From positions 2,619,001 through 2,683,000 of the forward strand of contig NC_087392.1 of assembly GCF_963675165.1 (NCBI RefSeq): a stretch of 64,000 nucleotides of DNA. Reading direction: 5' to 3'. Source of the stretch: Halichondria panicea. Lineage: Eukaryota > Porifera > Demospongiae > Suberitida > Halichondriidae. Shown here piece by piece: positions 260-63,659 of this stretch. Numbering within the stretch: position 1 is the first letter of the stretch; every line of letters starts with the position of its first letter. Both the position numbers and the translations under genes were made by a program. The notes below the pieces were generated by a model. The model saw only the letters and a list, made by a program, of their open reading frames with translations, had not been told where the DNA came from and did no database searches.

Positions 260-6142
<5,883 letters not shown>

Positions 6143-24465: not shown

Positions 24466-30527
<6,062 letters not shown>

Positions 30528-49729: not shown

Positions 49730-52190
49730 TTATTTTTTCTCTAGCTTCAATTTTGGTGGCTTTAGTCCTGTAGATAAACCTTTGCCTTTCTTTTTCTTTT
49801 TAGTTTTACTGTCTTGAAATGATCTCCAGCTGTCCACTCGCTTTGTTCTAGTCTCCTGTAAAAATTCCACACCTTATAAACAGCCAACCTTGTATACATG
49901 ACTGATGTATACTACAGTACCCCTATTTGCCACCGAAGAAGGCCAGACAACCCCTTAATTAAAAAAAGGCCACTTCTGTATAAGGGCCAAACCTCAAATG
50001 GGTGTCTTGTACATAATGTATATAAACTCTCAATAAAATGTGGGTGTGGTTTCCTGTTTGCCCGTTATAAGAGGCAGTTTTGCACAGAGTTGGTCAGTTG
50101 GAAGCATGAAGCCTGTCCTCTGTCCTTAAGAAGGTTCCGCTTAGTGGTGGCTTTTGTGTACTTACAATGTAGATAGTGATTTCAATCCGTGCCATAGCTA
50201 GTGTCCTTCATAGAGAGGTTGTCCTCTAGTGGGAGGGTCCGTTATGGGTTCCACTGTACTCAGTACCCCTCTGCCACCCCTGATCATGAGAAGGCCAGAC
50301 ACCCAGGTCCAAAATGAACTATACAAAAGAAACCTAAAGGCCACCTCTGTAAAAGGGCCAAACCTTCGTTCCTAAATGGTGTCCCTGTATATAAACCCTC
50401 ATTATTATGTAAACACACCTCCCACTGTTCCTTCCATTCCTTCTCCTTCTTGGCCTTCTCCTTGATTTCATCCACCTCCTCCCTCTTCCTCTTCCTCTCA
50501 TGAATGTCTCGCTCTTCCATCGCCTTCTTCTTCAGGTCAAGATCAACAAACAACTTCGTCAGGGTGTTGTTGAAAAAAGTCTTGCACTATAATTATGTGT
50601 GGGAGAAGAATGGGTAGGTGTGTATTATACATAGAGATTATAAGGCTACACTGTAAAGCTATTCATGTCTGTTTGTCTGACTGTGTATATTCCAGCTGCA
50701 ACTGTTGCGATGCGAGTACAGCTATAAAGAGCTTCTATACTTTCCACAAAAATTTAGCTACATATGGTATTTGTGGATTTGCAACTATATAGAGCTTAGA
50801 CAGTTTTTCGAGTTTATGGCTAGTTTTAATTGAAGGCAGTTTGCAAATTCTTCAATGTTGCCTGTCCGTATAATGAACTTATTGAGCACAACAAGCTTCA
50901 AACCAGAGGGTGTGACCGTCACACACTGCATTTTTACTTTAGCCATGCAGTAGCTATTTTACGGGCAGTATTTGGGTGTACAGTGTAAATGGTATATACG
51001 TGGTGGGTAATAAATAAAAGTAACCTTATTGAGACACACGGTGAATTCTCTGAATACTGTTGGACAAACATTAGGTAGGGGTGACCATTGACCGTACAAC
51101 ATATGGGAGGAAGCCAGGAGCTTACCTTTTCCGGGTCATCTTCTTCAATAGTTATTTTGCCAGATTTTTTGGCAAGTGCTCGTTTCTCCTCCAGTTTGTG
51201 CTCTACAAGAGCCTCAGCCTCCTCTATTACACCTTTACAGTAGGCATACTTCTCCTCATCGTTGAACATCTCATATGCTTTACTCACAGCTGAGGGTGTG
51301 GGCGGCTTCATGTGAGCATACACATGATGTGTGCTTTTTCACCCACCATCAAAAGCTAGCTGAGCTCTATCTTTGTCATCTGGGTTCTTGTCTGGATGAA
51401 CTAGAAAGGAAAGCTGCAAGATGTGTGTACAGTGTGATCACCTTTTTGCACGTAAAGACATTCTTACCTTTCTGTACGTTTTCTTTATTTTATCCAAAGT
51501 CAAGTCTGCATCTATCATCAGTACCTAAACATAATTTATGTTCATACAGTGGGCATACGACGAAACAGTAATATGGTATAGGTCAAAGCATAGCCAAACT
51601 AGCTTAAGCTGGCTCAACTAAAGTGTTTTCACATACATTGTAAGGATTTAAGTTGCTGTACTTAGACCCCGGTCGGAGAAGCCTGTCAATTTGCTGCACA
51701 CTTGTCAATACAGAATCTCTCTTCTCAATGGCCTTCACCTACAGTAACATACCATAATACATACCATAATAGTGTCAGAAATAATAACCGATTTTTTCTT
51801 ATAATTTGTCCACATGGTGCTATAATTTAATACGGCACACAAAGGCACTACTTTATTTTAGCGGCGGGAACATCATTGTGCACTAAATGGGTCTCCAAGC
51901 TATTCAGCAATTTGAATTGAATGTGACCGCCACTCTAAATAAAGCGCCATCTAAAGTTAAAGTAGCCAACACAACATTCTCGGTTCTATTTGGGTGCCGA
52001 AGAAAAATCAGAACTTTACGTCACACACTACGTCAGGAGCAAATGAGATATCTCTCATCACTCTTGGTAGGTTTATAGTTAGAGTATAGAGCTCCCTATT
52101 ATATGCCATGTGTACTGTGATATAACTTACCTCATTCATAAACTCTGTAAAGGTGTTTTCTCCACTGCTTCCCTCTCCTCCAGTGGCCAT
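49730..52190 (-). CDS. DNAJC8: DnaJ homologue subfamily C member 8 (spliceosome-associated J protein)
   Basis: Minus strand, seven exons: 52131-52190, 51637-51738, 51468-51524, 51347-51413, 51126-51289, 50419-50580, 49730-49855. They join in frame to 245 residues (human 253). Blocks in order: KAIEKRDSVLTS, RLLRPGSKYSNLNPYNVL, a J domain (about 55-120) with LVHPDKNPDD holding the catalytic HPD, ITIEEDDPEK, a long Arg/Lys/Glu helix (HERKRKREE), and a C-terminal RVDSWRSFQ and GLKPPKLK. The HPD loop stimulates Hsp70 ATPase. In animals DNAJC8 is nuclear and co-purifies with spliceosomes. The start MATGG at 52190 matches the family; an upstream in-frame ATG at 52205 would add five residues. It converges on RPL13A with a gap of about 240 bp. 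Confidence 0.94.
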
Positions 52191-53029
52191 TTTCACTTTT
52201 TGCATTTTTCGTTTCTTGAATTTCGTATAATTGGTTATAAATGTACTTTGCACTGTGATCCGCATTTTAATATAAACACTGTACATGTGTACGTACTGGA
52301 AATTACAGTACTAATTATTTGCGTGCTGTCATGAAATGCAAGACAACTAGCTGCACAGCATTGCAGTAGCGGGGCTCAGCGCAGCTGTGAATATCTACCT
52401 ACCTTGAGTCTCTATATATCTCCTGGAGAGAGCCTAAGAGAGTCGTGCTGGGTGAGTTGCTGTGTTTGCAGAGGGGTGCTTTGCCAACAGTTCTCTGGTT
52501 GTCAATATAATATCATTATAAATGTTTATTATAGTAAAGCTAGCTGTGGGCACACTGTACTGAGTGAGAGTGTTATTTTTACATGTGCCTGCATGTAGAC
52601 AAACTGTAAACGGGAAAGTCATAATTGCATGTATATCTTACTTCGATCTTCATAATTTGGCAGGTAGATATGTACCATTTATTGGTCCCTGGGGAAAGTT
52701 TTAGTTTCATGCTAAACAGAGTAGTTTGCTGATTTGCGCAATTGCTTTGATCATATCCCCTATTTAGTTTTTGCCAGTTGTACAGCTGTGTGTTGGTACA
52801 TGGTAGGGCAACGTGTTGTTGGTACTGGAAATGCAGGAAATGCACCTTTGAACATCGCACACAGGTGCTCACAATTGATACCGATAAAAATAATCTGAGG
52901 TTACTGTTTGGGAAGTTATGATATCACTGTGGTGTTTGTATGTACTTACCTCATGAACACACCATGTGCACTCACCCACCCACAGATGTGTCCAATCGTT
53001 TCCAACGTGATCCCAGTCATTTTGTCGTG
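52191..53029. promoter_or_regulatory. Divergent intergenic region DNAJC8 (-) / RYK (+)
   Basis: About 840 bp separating divergent start codons. It contains both promoters. A CCCACCCACAG just before 52987 is a good splice acceptor, so the RYK transcript may have an upstream non-coding exon. No mobile element is recognised. Confidence 0.4.
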
Positions 53030-56000
53030 ATGAGAAGGTTCATCTTGCTTCTGTTGCTAGCCACTCCCCTGTGCAGTGGCTACCAGGTGTACATTGACAG
53101 CACTGATCTTGAAGAGTACTTCACTGGAACGTTGCACTTTAGCGATGTGCAAGGTAAAGTGGCAATAAATATCGTACAAAGGTTTGTCTGTGAGAACAGT
53201 ACTTACTTAAGTGGGTATGTTCTGTTGCTATTCCGATTCCACAAGATTGTGCGTGCAGTTAATGTTAGCAAGTGTGCAGAGCTATTGAATTGGCACGACC
53301 AGAGCATGTTGGTAAATATCTTAAGTTTATAGTAACATTCCTAGTTGAAGCCTGTTACTCAGATTCCTGTCTCAGCTGAACGGCAGCCTGCCTGACATTT
53401 AATAACACCAACACTGTGCCATTTGCTATTTGTTATCATAACTCGTCTACTAAGCTAACTGCATTATAACTGTGATTAAGCACTGTATAAATATGCTACT
53501 TAAAATGCATCAAAGCTCCGTTGTGTGCATACATTACAATTGTAATTGGATGGTTGTGAGAATAATTATCATTTGCATGATGTCTTTTTAAGTAATGTGC
53601 AACCTTTATGGCTGTCGTTATAATTGGTAACACTCACCGTTGAGGGATTCCAGACATTCCTAACTCACGGTTTCTTGGTCATTGTGGGGCTCTGGGTTTG
53701 TAGCAACTGGGTTTAAGTGTTGCCTCAATAGCTAGATACATACTTCGGAATCAGCCCACTTAGAACATTTAGAGTTGGACGACTGTTGTTTGCATCATTA
53801 GTAATTCTTCGGGAGACATGATATCCCCTTCATTAGATCATGAACGCATTCACTTTTGCAGGTCGTACGGCAGTTATTATTGAGAATGGAACATCTCAAA
53901 TAAAAGCCAATGGCTCCCTCTATCTCGTCAGCTCGAGTGGGACGAAGGATAAATTGCTTCCACCTCTTCCCAGGAGTGTTGATAGTGTAACCGTCACTTG
54001 GCTGGCTGGTAATAGTTCAAAGGTGAGAGGATGTTAGCATTGCTAGCCTGACAAAGGTTCAGTGGTTAGTGGGTAGACTCGCAAGCCGTCACTGTTGCAC
54101 GACGAACAGTAGACTGGACAAACTCCGTGTAGAGACTCGTGCAATGTTTGCCACAATATTTGTGGCAACTCAAGTGGCTAGACCGCATGCGGTTACCACA
54201 AGATCATTGATAGTGAGGTGGTAGCACTAGGTATCACATGCAGTATACTGACGTCACGAAAACCGCAAGCCACTGATATGCTGACTGTGCAACACAAGTC
54301 TCTACACGGAGTTTGACCAGTATACTGTTCGCCGTGTAAACAGTAACGAGTTGCTAATCTAGTTAGTGGGTATTGGCATTTACTGTGATTATATAATTAT
54401 AATAATGTTGAGAGGCAAGCTAGTAGTGAACTGTCTGACTGGTTGTAGAGAGACACTCCTAGACATCATCACACAACGTCGTCGTGCATGCTAGAATGGT
54501 GCTTACTGTGTTTCGTGTGTGGAGTATATCATTGTATGCATGACGTGATGGTGTCTGCCCCTCTTGCTTGATCAGTGATGTGTGGTGCTGTGTGTGCAGC
54601 CCACAGACATTCCCTTTGATTCTGGGCATTGTACTGCTCTTGAATCACAATTCCCTATAGTTTCCCCATTGTGTATTACTCAATCCTGTCATGAATTTCC
54701 CCATTATCCGTGGTGTTATCAGCAATCAGTTGGTTTCAATGTGGGCTTGTGCTTATAATGGGAAGGGTACTAGCTGCCGGTCTATCATAGTAGTATCTAC
54801 CTGTAAATGGGGGGAAATTGTTGTGTACAAGTTAGACTGCCCACACACTTTCCGCTCTGCATAGGCATACATTTATGTTAATTTATCTAAAGGTGAACTA
54901 TCGGAGGACGTGTGTCCATCTCATATTACATTGTGGCAGGTTGTCAGTTGCTCACTGTGTGAAAACTTCTCCACGTAATTACCAGAACATTGTTGGCATC
55001 TGAGCACAACATTCCGCTAACCAATTTGCACGTATCACGTATTTTTGAAATACGTCAGCTAGCTACATGTAGCTAGTACTGTTCATGTCGTATACAGTAT
55101 GGGTCAATATAAACCCAATCACCCGTAGAGTGTAGTATCCTCCCACCTCGAGCTGCATTAACATCTTTATAAGTCAGCCTTGCCTTGAAAGTTACCCTTT
55201 ATAGCGAATCGTTACACTCACCTCTCCTAATAGGGAAGATAATGGTACATGTGGTGGTGCAGTCTAAGCATGCATATGTACTCGATCCTGTACTTAACCT
55301 GTTAGAAAAGTGCCAGGTATTTGCGTATAATTTTTGTACACAGGATATGCTTTTCATTTTTGTAAGGCCAAAGCTCCCAAAGTGCTGCTAGTGTTGTCTA
55401 TTGCTGCATCACTTCACATTCTTGGAATGTGGTTGCAACATGTGTACATACGCATAATATATTTGTTTGCTTTATTTAATTATTAGCCTGAGTAGCCTAC
55501 TCTAGCTGTGTAATGAAGTGTGGGTGTGTGCGTATGGACTTCGCTCATTGTGTGGGTTCTGTGTGTTTGAGTCTTTCTATGTATGTTAGTGAGTTCAAGT
55601 GCGTCGTGGTATGCAATTGTCCATTGTTCAATGTCCATTGTTCAATTCTGTAACCATGATGTTTCTTTTCAGCTGACGTGAGCGACGTGAGAGTGGGTCA
55701 ACGAGGTAGCTATCATGTAGCGTTTACACAACCACAATTATGTAAACAATTGTGTGGCTTGTAAGTCAAGTGGTTGTTTTTACAGGTTATGTATAGTCTG
55801 AGTGTTGATCAAGATCCAAGCAACTTCTTTGCTTCCCAACAAATCATAAGCATAAATGCCACCGGAGATATTCCATCACCGAAAAGTGGTGAGTTGATAG
55901 TGCAAATCCTTGAGGCCAAATAAGTGTATTGCTACAGTATTAAAGGTGCTCAAAGGTAACTATTCAGCCACTGATCGTTCCAAATATGCCAAACAATTAT

Positions 56001-59000
56001 AGTATCCAAAGTCACCTGCTTTTAAATGTTGAGCTGCACAGTGTATATGCACATTGTGTAGTTGTTTCACACTTATGATCATCTTGTGCAGTGTTCACAC
56101 TGAATGTAACGTGTGGTAGTGTGCCGGGAGAGGGGGACCTGATGATAGATCTCACAAGCACTGTGAACAACTCCATGCAGCTGCTGACGTCTTTTCTCAT
56201 CACTAAAGACTGTGGTGAGGGATTCGATACTAATACTTACCATGTAGCTGTTTCAAAGTTGTGCTCTAATAAAATTATGTTCGAATGTTATATTCGAATG
56301 TTGGCTAATTTTGTATTGAGAGGTCGCTTAGGTGGTACTGTACAGTGTACTTGTGGTTTCATGTGTAGTTTTGTCATTTGTACGTTTTCTTTACATTTTG
56401 CCTTGGCCACCAACACATTGTAATTAAGCAATCAGTGTTAATGACATTGTTTTCAACTCAAAAATGCTTCTAGTCATTAAAAGTCCAGTCGCACAATGGG
56501 CTGCCTTGGAAAGTGTGGGTGGAATGATTGATTTATGAATATTCATAGCCACTTATCATAACTTTTCCCATACTTTTAGAAGCTGCCATGACACTGACCG
56601 TTGTGTATGCTTAGTGTAACTTGAGAACATTACACGTACAATAACATGTGCATTAATTGTGATATTCCTTGTCTGCAGGCTCTCTACCACCAACAAGTTC
56701 GCTGTCTGCAGCAATGTCTCCAACGCTATCACCCACTTCAGCCGTCTTGACCTCCGCTGCCTCAAATTCCATGGGCTACACAGCTGCTGTTACTGCTAGT
56801 TTTGTACTGTCCAGTGTTTCTTTAGAGTCAATGACTGCTAATACCCAAACACAGACAGCTGGACTCAGTTCTGTATTTGGCTTTGATTCATCTTCTACTG
56901 GTGCCACAATACCAGCCACCAGTTCAGTGATTTTCACTCCAACTCCATCCAACCTTCTCGTGACCTCGTCTATTCAGCTGTTCTCCTCTGACCTCATTTT
57001 CACTCCAGCTCCCACCAATTCACAACCTTCTCTCACTAGTAGCTTGACCTTTTCCCCGGCCCAAACTAATGCTCCTTCCCTCACAAGCTCAATACATGCT
57101 AGCAGTCCGCCTGTCACAATGATGAGCTCTTCTCCTGGAATGCTAATTAGTCCCAGCCAGAGTTCGGAGATTGTCTCCAAAACTATACAGAGCAGTGTGT
57201 ATTATTCTCCAGAAATAACTTCACTTGTATATACCACATCATTCGCTACCACTAAAAGCATTTTAACAGAAGTGCCTACATTGACTCAATTAGTAACAGA
57301 AGCCACTCCCGAGATTATGAAAACCACTTCTATGTCAACAAGAGCTGTGCCATCCACTGCGGTACCAACAAAAGTGCTGACATCCACTCAAGCATCAAAA
57401 GAAGTGCTAACATCCACTGAGATACCAACAGAAGTACCAAAGTCCACTAACGTACTGACTTCCACTGCGGTACCAACAGAAATGCTGACGTCCACTGCGG
57501 TACCAACAGAAATGCTGACACTGACGTCCACTGCGGTATCAACAGAAATGCTGACGTCCACTGCGGTATCAACAGAAATGCTGACGTCCACTGCAGTACC
57601 AACAAAAATTCTGACGTCCACTGCGGTACCAACAGAAATGCTGACGCTGACGTCCACTGCGGTATCAACAGAAATGCTGACGTCCGTGATACCAACAGAA
57701 ATGCTGGCGTCTACTGCGGTACCAACAAAAATGCTGACACCCACTGCGGTATCAACAGAAATGCTGACGTCCACTGCGGTACCAACAGAAATGCTGACGT
57801 CCACTGCGGTACCAACAGAAATGCTGACACCCACTGCGGTATCAACAGAAATGCTGACGTCCACTGCGGTACCAACAGAAATGCTGACACCCACTGCGGT
57901 AACAACAGAAATGCTGACGTCCACTGTGGTATCAACAGAAATGCTGACGTCCGTGATACCAACAGAAATGCTGACTTCCACTGTGGTAACAACAGAAATG
58001 CTGACACCCACTGCGGTAACAACAGAAATGCTGACGTCCACTGCGGTATCAACAGAAATGCCAACAGAAATGCTGACTCCCACTGCGGTATCAACAGAAA
58101 TGCTGACACCCACTGCGGTATCAACAGAAATGCTGACGTCCACTGCGGTATCAACAGAAATGCTGACATCCACTGCGGTATCAACAGAAATACTGACGTC
58201 CACTGTGGTAACAACAGAACTACTGAATTCCACTGCGAATTCCACTCCGGTACCAACAAAATTACTGACATCCACTCCTGTACCAACAAAAGTTCTAACA
58301 TCTACTGCGATACCAACTGAGTTTGTCACATCCACTTCAACAGTTTTGACACCCAGTCCTACATTTGTGTCTTCCCCAGTGATAACTATGAGCTCCTCAC
58401 CACTAGATATGTCTACCATACTCTCGACCTCAATGTCCAGTTTTATAGAATCAAGTTTGTTACCGTCTTCGTCAATCTCAAGCTTTGTTACCACATTAAT
58501 ACCATTGTTATCATCGTCTGCTTCAACACCATCTGCTATGCCAACCTTTACCAATGTACCAATGTCACATTCTGTGTTTACCTCAAGCTATTCACGGTCT
58601 CTATCATTATCAAGTGGTTCAATACCAATCTCACCATCTTTATCAAGCTCTGGTGTGCCAGTACCATCTTTAACTTTAGCAGCACCATCAGTCACAATGT
58701 CAAGGCCGTTATCCATTTCGAGCTTACCGCGGTCTTTATCCTTATCACAAATCTCGGACTTTGTTATGTCAACACCATCATTTTCTAGTTTAATTGTGTC
58801 GACACCGTCTTTGTTGATGTCAAGTTCAATGTTATCTCCGTCATCAACTGTGTCATTTTTGTCATCATCCTCTGGTTCCACCAGTGAGCCTACAGGGACC
58901 GATCTCACACCCAGTAGCCCTGTCCTCTTCACCCTTCAGCTAACCAATTCTCGGCATCCCCTATCGACTAACTCCTTGCCACCTGGGGCGTCCCCTGAAC

Positions 59001-62000
59001 CCAATGAAACCGACAATGGAACAGGAATCCCAACTAAAGGTGGGTGCATGGGTGATTGTTATTTTCAATTTTGCTAAGTTATATTTCAATCAATGTGGTA
59101 TGTGGTTGCTGACATTGCTAGTTTAATTGCACAACATGTACAATACAGTACAGCTGCTCGCTTATCATAATTGGCATGTAATGCCTGTCCATCCCTCTCA
59201 TACCATCCCTGGGTGTGTCGCTTGCATAGTGCTCCATACTAACTTTATGTGAGCACTGTTGTAAGGAAGTGCCAGCACATTTTTATGGTTCTGGTCTCTT
59301 AAATATATAATTCCTAGCCTCATTTGTACACCTGGGATATCGCAACAGCATTATAATGGCTTCTATTATACAAGTTCCAACTATTCCTTATTTAGTCTAG
59401 GATATATATCCCAGTCATTCCCTTTTCGAATAGGTTTGCCATGATGGCCACTTTCCATCTCTGGTGCGGCATGATATCGCACTAACTAAAGGGAGGGGCT
59501 GCTCGCATCTAGGCGACACTTGTATGTTCACAGTCAGCTAGTGGCTATTTGAGGTGGACACTTGAGGATAGGCCAGTATGCCAGTATGGGTCATATCTTT
59601 ACTAACAAATTAATGTTTCTGTTTATGTTTGATGTAGAGCCTGAGCTGATGACTATACTTCTGATAGCGTTTGCTCCAGTGGTAGCAATACTACTACTTT
59701 GCATTATCCTAATATTCTGCTGCATATGCTGTATCCGTCGTAAGAAGAAGAAGACCAAACAGTAAGTTACTGACTGGCCCACATGCGCTAATTTAAAACT
59801 TGATCATTGAGTTTTAATGTTGCCATTTCTTACATACTTCACTGCAGTAGCTTCAATGATGACCCTGCGGACCTACCAGTGTCCATAGCAGAGTCCAATT
59901 TTGTGTTAGGAGCCGATGACTTCGAGGCATCTACCAAGAAAACTGAGGCACCTATTTCTCTATGGACGAGTGAGTGTTGTTTACCTGATGACCCTTTACC
60001 AGATACATTCTACTGCTCACATCTCGAATATTGAAGAGATGATCCTTTACCTTTGTGCTGACACATTGCTGCAGGTCTTCCTTGGGGTGTAGTTTCCACT
60101 CTTCCTAAAGTAGTTCAGGGAACAATTCACCCATACACTGTTGACAGAAGATCACTCAGTATACTATCAACCATCCACAGAGGTAACTAGAAGCAAGCGT
60201 TTGTGTTGTACATGTGATTAGTTCCATTGATTTGCAGGGACGTATGGGTGCATTGTGAATGGCCAAATGAGTGTGGACCGCACTGATCTTGTGGACGGGT
60301 ACAAGGGAGTCATGATGAAAATGCTTATAGGTGATCCCATGTAACAACACACTCAGCTAGACATTAAATACACGCTTGTATATTAATTTCCATGCTGCTG
60401 ACACACTGAGACATGTGTACATGCAAGACCCACATGCAAGACCCACATGTACATATGCCTCGGTCCCATGTCTACACTCTTTAGACCTACCGTATAGCGG
60501 CAAGCTCAGGATAGTGACGTTGAATCTTGCGGTAGAATAATTTCTTAGTTTTAATTTCGTATGATATGCTCTACAATACAAAATATACGAAAATTTCCAC
60601 CATACGAAAATAACCCACAATACAGTACAATGTATATACACTTGTAATGAAACTCTCCCACCAATGCATAATTATATAGGTTTCCAGCAAAATACAGGGC
60701 ATCACCAGGAGATTGCCAAGTTCCTCGAGTATGCCACTATTATGCGTGATCTTGACCACCCCAACATTTCCAAGGTGATGAATGTGAGCGTAGAGGACAA
60801 CTTAGCGCCACTGGTCCTCTACCCGATAGTGGAGTACGGGAACCTGCACACCTTCCTCACCTTTTGCCGAGTCTCACCCAACGAGAGTCCTCTCAATGTA
60901 AGCACCTACGTGTACATGTACGTGTACATACATTCTATTGTGATATGATGTAAAAGTTATTTTAGGCACCGTTATAAATTTGTCACAACTTTCACATTTT
61001 ATAGGTTTAGTGACTCTAGGTAGGTATGGTGTATTTAGTTGGTGTGTGGAGTGTTTAATTGTGGGCCTTGCTTACACAATCGTGAAAACTGCCATAGGCT
61101 GATGACTCACCGGAGTACCGTGGCTATGTACGAGCAAATGAGAACCTGGTATGGTGTGTGCCACTGAGGAGTGTTTAGTATGCTGTAGTGACAGTAGAAT
61201 GGGAACCTGGTATGGTGTGTGCCACTGAGGAGTGTTTAGTATGCTGTAGTGTCAGTAGAATGGGAACCTGGTATGGTGTGTGCCACTGAGGAGTGTTTAG
61301 TGTGCTGTAGTGACAGTAGAAGTATCTAGCTAGCATTAGCGGAGGGATAGCATAGCTAGAATTGTAAGAGAGTGATAGTAGTACTAGCTGGCTGAGAGGA
61401 TTATATAAGTACATATATGTATTTTATATTCAGCTCTATATTCAGCTCTGCTTTTGTGTGAGCTACGTATGTTCTGGGTTTTGTACTCTTGTCGTGGTAT
61501 TCACTACTGCTACATATTCAGTAATTGTCTGACATTGTTATTTAGAACAACTGTCATTGTTCTCTTTCATTGTTATCCTTTATTTCACAGCCGGTGACAT
61601 TTCAGTACAAGGTAAACTTTGGACTCCAGGTGGCATACGCGATGAAATACCTCAGTGACAAGGGGGTGGTTCATCCTGACCTAGCACTCAGGAACTGCTT
61701 GTGAGTCACCTGTGTACCTGTTCACAGTACTAGTAGCACTAAAGCTTCGGTGTGGTACATGTACATGTATGTATGCATGCTGGCACAAGAAAATACAGTA
61801 GTGCGTTACGTTCACATATGAAATGTTAAAACACAGTACATGTACCTACTGGGAACTGTTTCTTAGGGATACCACACATAAATGTATTATGTATGCAGGC
61901 TGGACACTAATTACCTGGTGAAAGTTAGTGATGGAGCCCTCTCTCAGGAGTTCTTCCCCAATTGTTATCACGTCATCAAGGGGGCTCTGAGGCCTGTGAG

Positions 62001-63659
62001 GTGGGCTGCCCCTGAGACATTCGCTGAGGGACTCTGTACATCACAAAGCAACGTGGTTAGTATTATGACTGGCTCTTTGTACTTTATAGTGTGTAATGAA
62101 GGTAGTTTCTACAGTGTTACTAATGAGGACACTGTGTTTTCTTGGTTTCTCTACATGAGAAGCATTATTGTACAGTTAACCCTGTAGTCACCTCGACACA
62201 TTTTGTTAACTCTTTGTTGTTCAATTCTGTCAATTTACTATCTCTCTCTTATTTCCCTCGTCAGTGGTCTTATGCTGTGACTCTATGGGAGATAATGACT
62301 AAGGCTGAGTTCCCATACAGAGAGGTGGATAATAACAGGAGCATCCCCTCTCACCTCATGATGGGGGCCAGGTTGGAGCAGCCTCCTGACTGCCCAAATT
62401 ACCTGTAAGTAACCTTAGTCCTGTACACTTCCCTGAGTGTTTATGTCGAACCGTATGAAGATTGAACTGTTTGCTCATGCCTGCACTTACATATGTCCTA
62501 TTGTCTTCTTTGTAGGTATGAGTTGATGCAAGCTTGCTGGGAAAGTAAAGCTGAACAGAGACCCAATTTTGGCTACCTTCACAGTCGAATTGAGCAGATT
62601 AATCAACAGCTAGCAATGGTTCAGGACGAATCACCCTTATCTACAAGAGTGGATGGACAATTGTACAGTCGGGAGAACTCCCAGGCGAGCTTAGATCACC
62701 CTTCCTCCCACCAATCACGACGCAAACGAAGTGGACGAAGCAGTTTATCAAAGAACAGTCCCTCAATCATGCGGAGGAGTATCAACAGCCGAGTGAGCGC
62801 AGCTGGCTCTGAGCATCTCAGTCTGACGTTTAGCGTGCTGAGTGGTGACCTGAGCGGCGAGTCTTCTAGTGAGGGGGAGGAGGGGCCTGAAATGCTGTCT
62901 CCGTTGGCAGAATCTGTGGTTTACCAGATGATACCGTCTCTCCTCAAAGATGACCCTGAAAACGACGTGAAACACTTGCCTACTACCTCACCTATGAATC
63001 TCGTTAATTCTTTCCTGGACTCTAGTAACAAAAACACAATCGAACTTAAAACTTCAAATTATGCACCTACATGTATTCCGTCAACATTAATCAGCCCAGC
63101 ACCCACTACACCCTCCACTGTCACAACTCGACTCACCCCCTGGGAGACGAATTCCTACACCTCCAGTCAGTTTGCACCATCGACTCTTCGAAGTGACGAC
63201 TCAGCAAGCACCCAACGTGCGGCATCTTCTCCGAGCCCTGATCTCACCAGCAAATCATCAATGTTTGGCGAGGACACAAACTCAAACCCTCGATTCAGCT
63301 ACATATCTCACTCTAATGCAGACACAGTCAGTAAAGCATCTATCAGCGAATCAGTGGGTGCATCAAATCCAGGTATGGATGACTGCCCTCAACCACCACC
63401 TAACCAAAACTCAAATATGCACACCCATAGTAACGGGCATCCAAAAATAAATGGGGCAGTTTTGAATCACAGCCTTGAAAGAATTGCTGACGCAGCAGAC
63501 TCCAGTGAAGTGAACACCAATGATATTAACGACTACGAGGGCACGCACAGTGATACCAAGTCATCAGTGAAACCACCGACTGGTGGTGATAGAACTTCTC
63601 TAGGTCTTACTGACCTTTCCAGTGACCTAATGGCAACTTTTGATAGCTGGAATCTTTAG
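53030..63659 (+). CDS. RYK-like: RYK/Derailed-like WIF-domain receptor pseudokinase with giant mucin-like insert
   Basis: Fourteen exons: 53030-53153, 53862-54022, 55786-55888, 56092-56214, 56679-59039, 59638-59761, 59848-59969, 60075-60182, 60238-60330, 60680-60897, 61591-61700, 61899-62055, 62265-62404, 62516-63659. They join in frame to 1695 residues. A signal peptide (1-17) is followed by a WIF domain (about 18-170). One 2.36-kb exon then adds about 787 Ser/Thr/Pro-rich residues with tandem STAVSTEMLT-type repeats, followed by one membrane helix (about 961-990, RRKKKK stop-transfer). The kinase-like domain (about 1075-1350) has GTYGC for the Gly loop, a candidate VMMK lysine, HPD for HRD and SDGAL for DFG, next to FFPNCYH as in RYK. 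A Ser-rich tail of about 345 residues ends it. RYK binds Wnts through WIF; vertebrate RYK is about 600 residues and lacks the insert and tail. Confidence 0.88.
54074..54361. mobile_element. MULE-like MITE with 9-bp target duplication (GTTAGTGGG)
   Basis: A 288-bp element in intron 2 of the RYK-like gene. The left end starts TAGACTCGCAAGCCGTCACT; the right end is AGTAACGAGTTGCTAATCTA, its imperfect inverse. A well matched inner part has CTCCGTGTAGAGACT on the left and AGTCTCTACACGGAG on the right. GTTAGTGGG flanks both sides (54065-54073, 54362-54370). Its first 14 bases match the right end of the 45-kb element (as complement) exactly. Confidence 0.78.
57450..58220 (+). repeat. Coding minisatellite, 30-bp unit, about 25 copies
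   Basis: Tandem copies of a 30-bp unit close to ACGTCCACTGCGGTATCAAC + AGAAATGCTG, encoding TSTAVSTEML-type decapeptides with S/P/T and T/P variants. Some units are shortened or carry insertions of 3n bases (for example extra CTGACG, or TSVIPTEML), so the frame is kept. It lies within the large exon of the RYK-like gene. The dense Thr/Ser makes each unit a likely O-glycosylation target. Copy number is probably variable between individuals. Confidence 0.9.
61142..61324. repeat. 61-bp tandem repeat, three copies
   Basis: GAACCTGGTATGGTGTGTGC starts at 61142, 61203 and 61264, an exact 61-bp period with one or two differences per copy. It lies in intron 10 of the RYK-like gene and is non-coding. 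Confidence 0.9.

Follow-up and report, generated by a model that had tools for sequence, protein, structure and literature searches.

The 64,000-nucleotide stretch of Halichondria panicea DNA analysed here (NC_087392.1, positions 2,619,001 to 2,683,000 of the forward strand; hereafter the window) carries on its plus strand, between positions 53030 and 63659, a gene which probably specifies a demosponge member of the RYK family of Wnt receptors, in which a mucin-like exon of 787 residues would replace the short juxtamembrane piece of the ectodomain. The fourteen exons and thirteen GT-AG introns, rebuilt from the raw sequence, give a single open frame of 1695 amino acids running through a signal peptide, a WIF domain, the large exon, a single transmembrane helix, a RYK-like kinase and a long tail. 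Both the gene model and the domain layout are known here from the DNA sequence alone. The exons are as follows.

Exon 1, 53030..53153, plus strand: ATG start, signal peptide and start of the ectodomain (hydrophobic stretch at residues 4-22)
Exon 2, 53862..54022, plus strand: part of the WIF domain (Pfam WIF corresponds to model residues 73-159)
Exon 3, 55786..55888, plus strand: WIF domain
Exon 4, 56092..56214, plus strand: end of the WIF domain, with C137 and C170; phase-1 donor
Exon 5, 56679..59039, plus strand: putative mucin-like stalk of 787 residues, phase 1-1; LTSTAVSTEM-type repeats of 10 residues arrayed in frame at 57351-58317
Exon 6, 59638..59761, plus strand: transmembrane helix and basic stop-transfer sequence RRKKKK (hydropathy up to 3.56, residues 958-994)
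Exon 7, 59848..59969, plus strand: cytoplasmic juxtamembrane region
Exon 8, 60075..60182, plus strand: cytoplasmic juxtamembrane region and start of the kinase
Exon 9, 60238..60330, plus strand: kinase N-lobe, with the GTYG loop and the lysine in MMK
Exon 10, 60680..60897, plus strand: kinase
Exon 11, 61591..61700, plus strand: kinase; HPD replaces HRD
Exon 12, 61899..62055, plus strand: kinase; DGA replaces DFG; RYK-like ALSxxxFPxxYH segment
Exon 13, 62265..62404, plus strand: kinase C-lobe
Exon 14, 62516..63659, plus strand: end of the kinase, then a Ser-rich cytoplasmic tail of about 350 residues; stop codon at 63657-63659

The initial annotation had placed a WIF domain, a Ser/Thr/Pro-rich exon, a transmembrane helix and a RYK-like kinase in one splice frame, with the large exon at these same coordinates and in phase 1 on both sides. 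Pfam and PDB searches, a kinase tree, splice-site scores and the frame itself bear this out, the exon measuring 2361 bp. The WIF assignment was likewise upheld by a profile search, in which PF02019 matched residues 73-159 at E = 3.9e-10, its 40 bits exceeding the cut-off of 25. When the genome (131 Mb in 39 contigs) was queried with a WIF protein, only this gene was matched, by all three exon pieces. A Pfam WIF search of the whole genome gave 0 matches, the window's own exons and 14 control genomes included, and says nothing on absence. The mature ectodomain has just two cysteines, C137 and C170, both within the WIF region, and the second of them immediately precedes the stalk. Apart from residues 4-22, the sole hydrophobic stretch is the transmembrane one at 958-994, as in a single-pass protein.

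The kinase domain scores 212 bits against PF07714. Six of the 145 kinase matches in the genome lie in this gene, at 83-96% identity, the other 139 reaching at most 49%, and no other close copy appeared among those scored (141 of 555 candidates). Its catalytic motifs are HPD for HRD and DGA for DFG, the lysine being kept in MMK; human RYK has HKD and DNA, and the sponge kinase, like RYK, looks catalytically degraded. When the 57 residues covering the catalytic and activation regions were searched against PDB, human RYK came out on top of 527 sequences. The kinase tree has 20 rows (twelve human kinases, seven others from this genome and the window kinase; human RYK is the sole RYK row). In it the window kinase pairs with human RYK (96/93) inside a RYK/MET/MERTK/AXL group (98/97), and when the long EGFR row is left out these values become 97/94 for the pairing and 99/97 for the group.

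Several results weigh against the assignment to RYK. The WIF match spans positions 33-120 of the 131 in the profile, leaving positions 1-32 unmatched, and single-sequence searches against the WIF-1 structures 2D3J and 2YGN were not significant (E 0.57-0.61). Over the full kinase, MET (177.9 bits) and MER (176.5) score above human RYK (163.8); the top PDB chain, EGFR at 216.4, owes its place only to two domains of 107 each. When the activation segment is removed as well as EGFR, the window kinase no longer pairs with RYK, though the five-member group persists (99/96). The tests do not reject a pairing of the window kinase and MET (p 0.094; 0.296 in the reduced tree). The end branch of the window kinase is the longest in the tree (2.34), and its placement is less sure for that reason. 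These kinase results could mean that a kinase from the MET/AXL side met a WIF domain independently and came to resemble RYK by convergence. We regard this as improbable, given the WIF-transmembrane-kinase order, the HRD and DFG motifs altered as in human RYK and the common ALSxxxFPxxYH segment; moreover, the next PDB neighbours of human RYK itself, apart from the two-domain EGFR chain, are MET and MER, so that high MET scores are to be expected. The question concerns the family only, and the stalked architecture would stand in either case. We file the protein provisionally as a RYK-family member on its architecture and kinase signature, the tree being taken as ambiguous on this point.

The most unusual part of the model is exon 5, for which an open and spliceable frame between the WIF and transmembrane exons is confirmed. 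Its acceptor (CCTTGTCTGCAG|GCTC at 56679) and donor (AAAG|GTGGGT after 59039) leave phase 1 at both ends, and the open reading frame (ORF) around it, measured from stop to stop, comes to 804 amino acids, the longest in the window; first-order Markov sequences of 64 kb, simulated 60 times, gave at most 203. A tandem array of 30-bp units fills about 1 kb of the exon and, taken alone, is a poor argument for coding because a period of 30 leaves the other frames nearly open; a 399-amino acid antisense ORF is a by-product of it. The flanks outside the array (672 and 722 bp) contain no stop in the exon frame, and the five other frames are all broken there, with 4-22 stops per frame in one flank and 2-45 in the other. 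Within the array the frame has been maintained, 29 of 29 ACAGAA/ACAAAA words lying in the same codon phase. This count serves as the frame test, since splitting the repeats by codons (32 pieces, 21 of them of exactly 10 codons) yields whole-codon lengths by construction.

Other measurements make a translated exon 5, or its constant inclusion, less certain. Over the 21 repeat units of standard length, 12 of the changes are synonymous and 32 are not, as compared with 26 and 64 among all possible single changes; since the substitutions are not clearly synonymous, the array shows maintenance of the frame and not conservation of residues. Synonymous codon usage in the 464 non-repeat codons scores -3.1, between the intron model (-15.4, standard deviation 6.7) and the coding model (+15.0, standard deviation 6.6), and 3.4% of 1000 intron-model draws reach that value; the repeat part scores -28.3. 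Two GT sites, at 58884 within the exon and at 59261, score 7.4 and 7.6, above the donor that we use, and exons 4 and 6 can be joined directly in frame, exon 5 being symmetric. Were the open frame simply a non-coding by-product of an intronic tandem repeat, the nearly open alternative frames of the array and the intermediate codon usage would be accounted for. This is scarcely credible, as some 1.39 kb outside the array is open too, and in the exon frame only, and the Ser/Thr/Pro-rich composition continues through both flanks. Our inference is that exon 5 is translated within the receptor.

Splice sites were scored with weight matrices built from the other introns of the gene (12 sites each). 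The acceptor of exon 5, at 10.8, outscores every other in 56215-59640 and stands 13th among the 4024 AG sites of the window; its donor, at 6.7, ranks 134th of 4703 GT sites and lies inside the 5.1-10.9 span of the gene's other donors. The frame would also be kept by an acceptor 33 bp further in, or by ending the exon at 58883. Because exon 5 can be skipped without a break in the frame, a short isoform is equally legal, and the exon might be a cassette that is seldom used, with a conventional WIF-transmembrane-kinase receptor of 908 amino acids as main product and the mucin form minor or tissue-limited. The direct junction reads ITKDC-EPELMTILL, and the short form would fit the layout of human RYK as given in the accessible part of PMC3776778. 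Against a cassette stand the strongest acceptor of the region, a donor of ordinary strength with no sign of a weak exon, and 2.36 kb of frame kept open; we consider it unlikely that the short form is the main product.

Very improbable, in our view, is a division of the locus into two neighbouring genes, with exons 1-4 coding for a secreted WIF protein and a second gene, starting at exon 5, for a mucin-transmembrane-kinase protein. Reading through beyond exon 4 does reach a stop after about 70 codons, so that retention of the intron could yield a WIF form that is secreted. The second gene, however, would have no signal peptide, hydrophobic stretches being confined to residues 4-22 and 958-994; the strong acceptor of exon 5 is in the very phase which the exon 4 donor demands; and a WIF domain next to a RYK-like kinase is the RYK layout itself.

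In the single receptor which we favour, the 787 residues of exon 5 include 167 Ser, 162 Thr and 73 Pro and no Cys (42% Ser+Thr, 9% Pro). Mucin-type domains are long Ser/Thr/Pro-rich regions which contain little cysteine and frequently carry tandem repeats; exon 5 has this character, the proline share being below that of many mucins. The stalk would probably be densely O-glycosylated. An exact 26-base pattern from the repeat occurs 15 times in the genome, each time in exon 5. In 200 kb drawn from 20 places in the same genome only two ORFs of at least 150 amino acids had a Ser+Thr+Pro fraction of at least 0.40, both on one alternating Thr-His codon run. Three others of at least 150 amino acids in the window (0.44-0.48) all lie on a (TG)247 array, and two ORFs of 114-115 amino acids reach 0.40. 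That array, at 27718-28211, is a perfect microsatellite and a source of long ORFs which look Ser/Thr-rich.

The RYK, Derailed and LIN-18 family shares with the sponge protein a signal peptide, a WIF domain, a single transmembrane helix and a tyrosine kinase-like domain with altered catalytic motifs, and the activation segment of human RYK is the closest among PDB sequences. The sponge protein differs from human RYK in that 787 mucin-like residues replace the short piece between WIF and membrane, and in its tail of about 350 residues after the kinase, which to our knowledge has no counterpart in human RYK. Known RYK ectodomains had been described in the initial annotation as a WIF domain plus a short juxtamembrane region, and this agrees with what PMC3776778, in the part accessible, gives for human and mouse: in human RYK the WIF domain occupies residues 66-194 and a juxtamembrane epitope lies at 212-216. 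The same part of that paper reports a tetrabasic shedding site (KRRK in human RYK, KRKK in Derailed, RRKK in Doughnut) for vertebrates and for two of the three fly members, and we do not count it as family-defining for that reason. No such basic site is found at the C-terminus of the sponge WIF domain, the ectodomain having no two adjacent basic residues, so any shedding would occur elsewhere, perhaps in the stalk.

Other proteins share single parts of this layout. WIF-1, which is secreted, has the Pfam WIF domain in common with the sponge protein, though their alignment is weak and non-significant, and unlike it has neither transmembrane helix nor kinase. It carries five EGF repeats according to the accessible part of PMC11414264. 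A receptor tyrosine kinase elsewhere in the same genome (locus L043, described below) likewise joins an ectodomain of unassigned type, a Ser/Thr/Pro stretch, a transmembrane helix and a tyrosine kinase (265 bits to PF07714); it differs in that no WIF domain was found in it, HRD and DFG are intact and its stalk is about six times shorter. The receptor tyrosine kinase of Geodia cydonium has Ig-like domains and no WIF domain, and its extracellular part was reportedly described in the 1990s as Pro/Ser/Thr-rich. That gene is discussed in the review PMC5793068, the accessible part of which does not cover the Pro/Ser/Thr-rich region. Among the matches listed from the open-licence literature, including PMC8662651, PMC3877318, PMC6374515, PMC12221298 and PMC5797367, as far as the texts were accessible, there was no sponge RYK and no RYK with a mucin-like stalk, and Ryk, mucin-like and WIF came together only in a guide to G-protein-coupled receptor pharmacology. 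Related loci were found neither in viral contigs nor in prokaryote genomes, and no counterpart from a second sponge came to light. The lineage-specific design proposed in the initial annotation is a conjecture.

WIF domains bind Wnt, the RYK kinase is inactive or weak, and mucin domains stretch out. At the 0.2-0.25 nm per residue usual for mucin-like ectodomains, the stalk would extend to the order of 150-200 nm. The most likely working of such a receptor would be that the WIF head is lifted above the glycocalyx and captures Wnt at a distance. As a long disordered stalk would be unable to pass on a rigid conformational change, signalling would proceed by clustering or by recruitment of a co-receptor or partner, the cytoplasmic domain being apparently catalytically degraded. 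Inclusion or skipping of exon 5 could yield long and short receptors. A more speculative extension, which we advance tentatively, is that sponges, or one lineage of them, use RYK as a splice-switchable mucin: the long form would collect or present Wnt with its WIF domain at least 150 nm up, the short form would signal in the ordinary way, and the number of repeats would tune the reach and could vary between individuals. The same genome has Wnt sequences (10 exon matches, at least three loci), Frizzled sequences (three strong matches and two weak ones) and, at five places, GalNAc-transferase-like sequences (10 exon matches), so that the sponge probably possesses the ligand, a partner receptor and the enzymes for glycosylation.

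RYK receptors and mucin stalks on surface proteins are both familiar, and this genome itself holds a receptor tyrosine kinase with a shorter stalk; what would be new is the combination, which was not encountered among the matches listed from the open-licence literature. The WIF head of human RYK is close to the membrane, and a long stalk, if true, would show that this closeness is dispensable. A long-stalked RYK in an early-branching animal would, on the same proviso, limit the models for RYK signalling and favour capture, clustering or presentation. The window gene is a concrete candidate through which Wnt reception could be studied in sponges.

Eleven other tyrosine kinase loci (L002-L010, L043 and L044), taken from the 145 kinase matches, many of which are exon pieces, were surveyed for stalks; for L002-L010 about 1.5 kb upstream was covered, and stalks on farther exons would be missed. 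L043 (contig C10, 1720000-1724500; positions 560-3832) is a single-ORF receptor tyrosine kinase of 1091 amino acids with an intact kinase and an ectodomain without a Pfam family match. Its Ser/Thr/Pro stalk of about 120 residues (0.60 over 80 amino acids) lies directly before the transmembrane helix, and the principle of a stalk is thus not unique to the window gene. Six other loci reach only 0.40-0.44 over 80 amino acids, five of them on antisense ORFs; in the sixth, L003, the region lies cytoplasmic to a hydrophobic stretch. The remaining four of the eleven show nothing at the threshold. The cytoplasmic part of L043 contains a repeated EVIYSDADTLPP. On contig C10, tyrosine kinase matches cluster at 1.70-1.94 Mb; in most of them the kinase domain is intronless and lies in one long open frame. 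Silicatein is a mark of demosponges, and locus L045 carries a silicatein-like exon in which serine replaces the catalytic cysteine (GDCGASYAFSAMGALEG).

Some minor features of the window deserve mention. A possible 51-bp microexon of phase 0-0 with AG and GT borders lies at 61098-61148 in the kinase insert region (ADDSPEYRGYVRANENL), and a 61-bp tandem repeat in three copies (61137-61321) duplicates its 3' end and donor. Intron 2 contains at 54095-54339 an inverted repeat whose 47-nt arms, 89% complementary, are separated by 151 nt; it may be a small mobile element. Coding-looking pieces on the minus strand at 50284-52310 stand head to head with the RYK-like gene; two of them have no Pfam match, and we take them, presumably, to resemble DNAJC8. 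Lastly, a 492-amino acid ORF at 6556-8031 matches the AIG1 family of GTPases (37.4 bits against a cut-off of 27).

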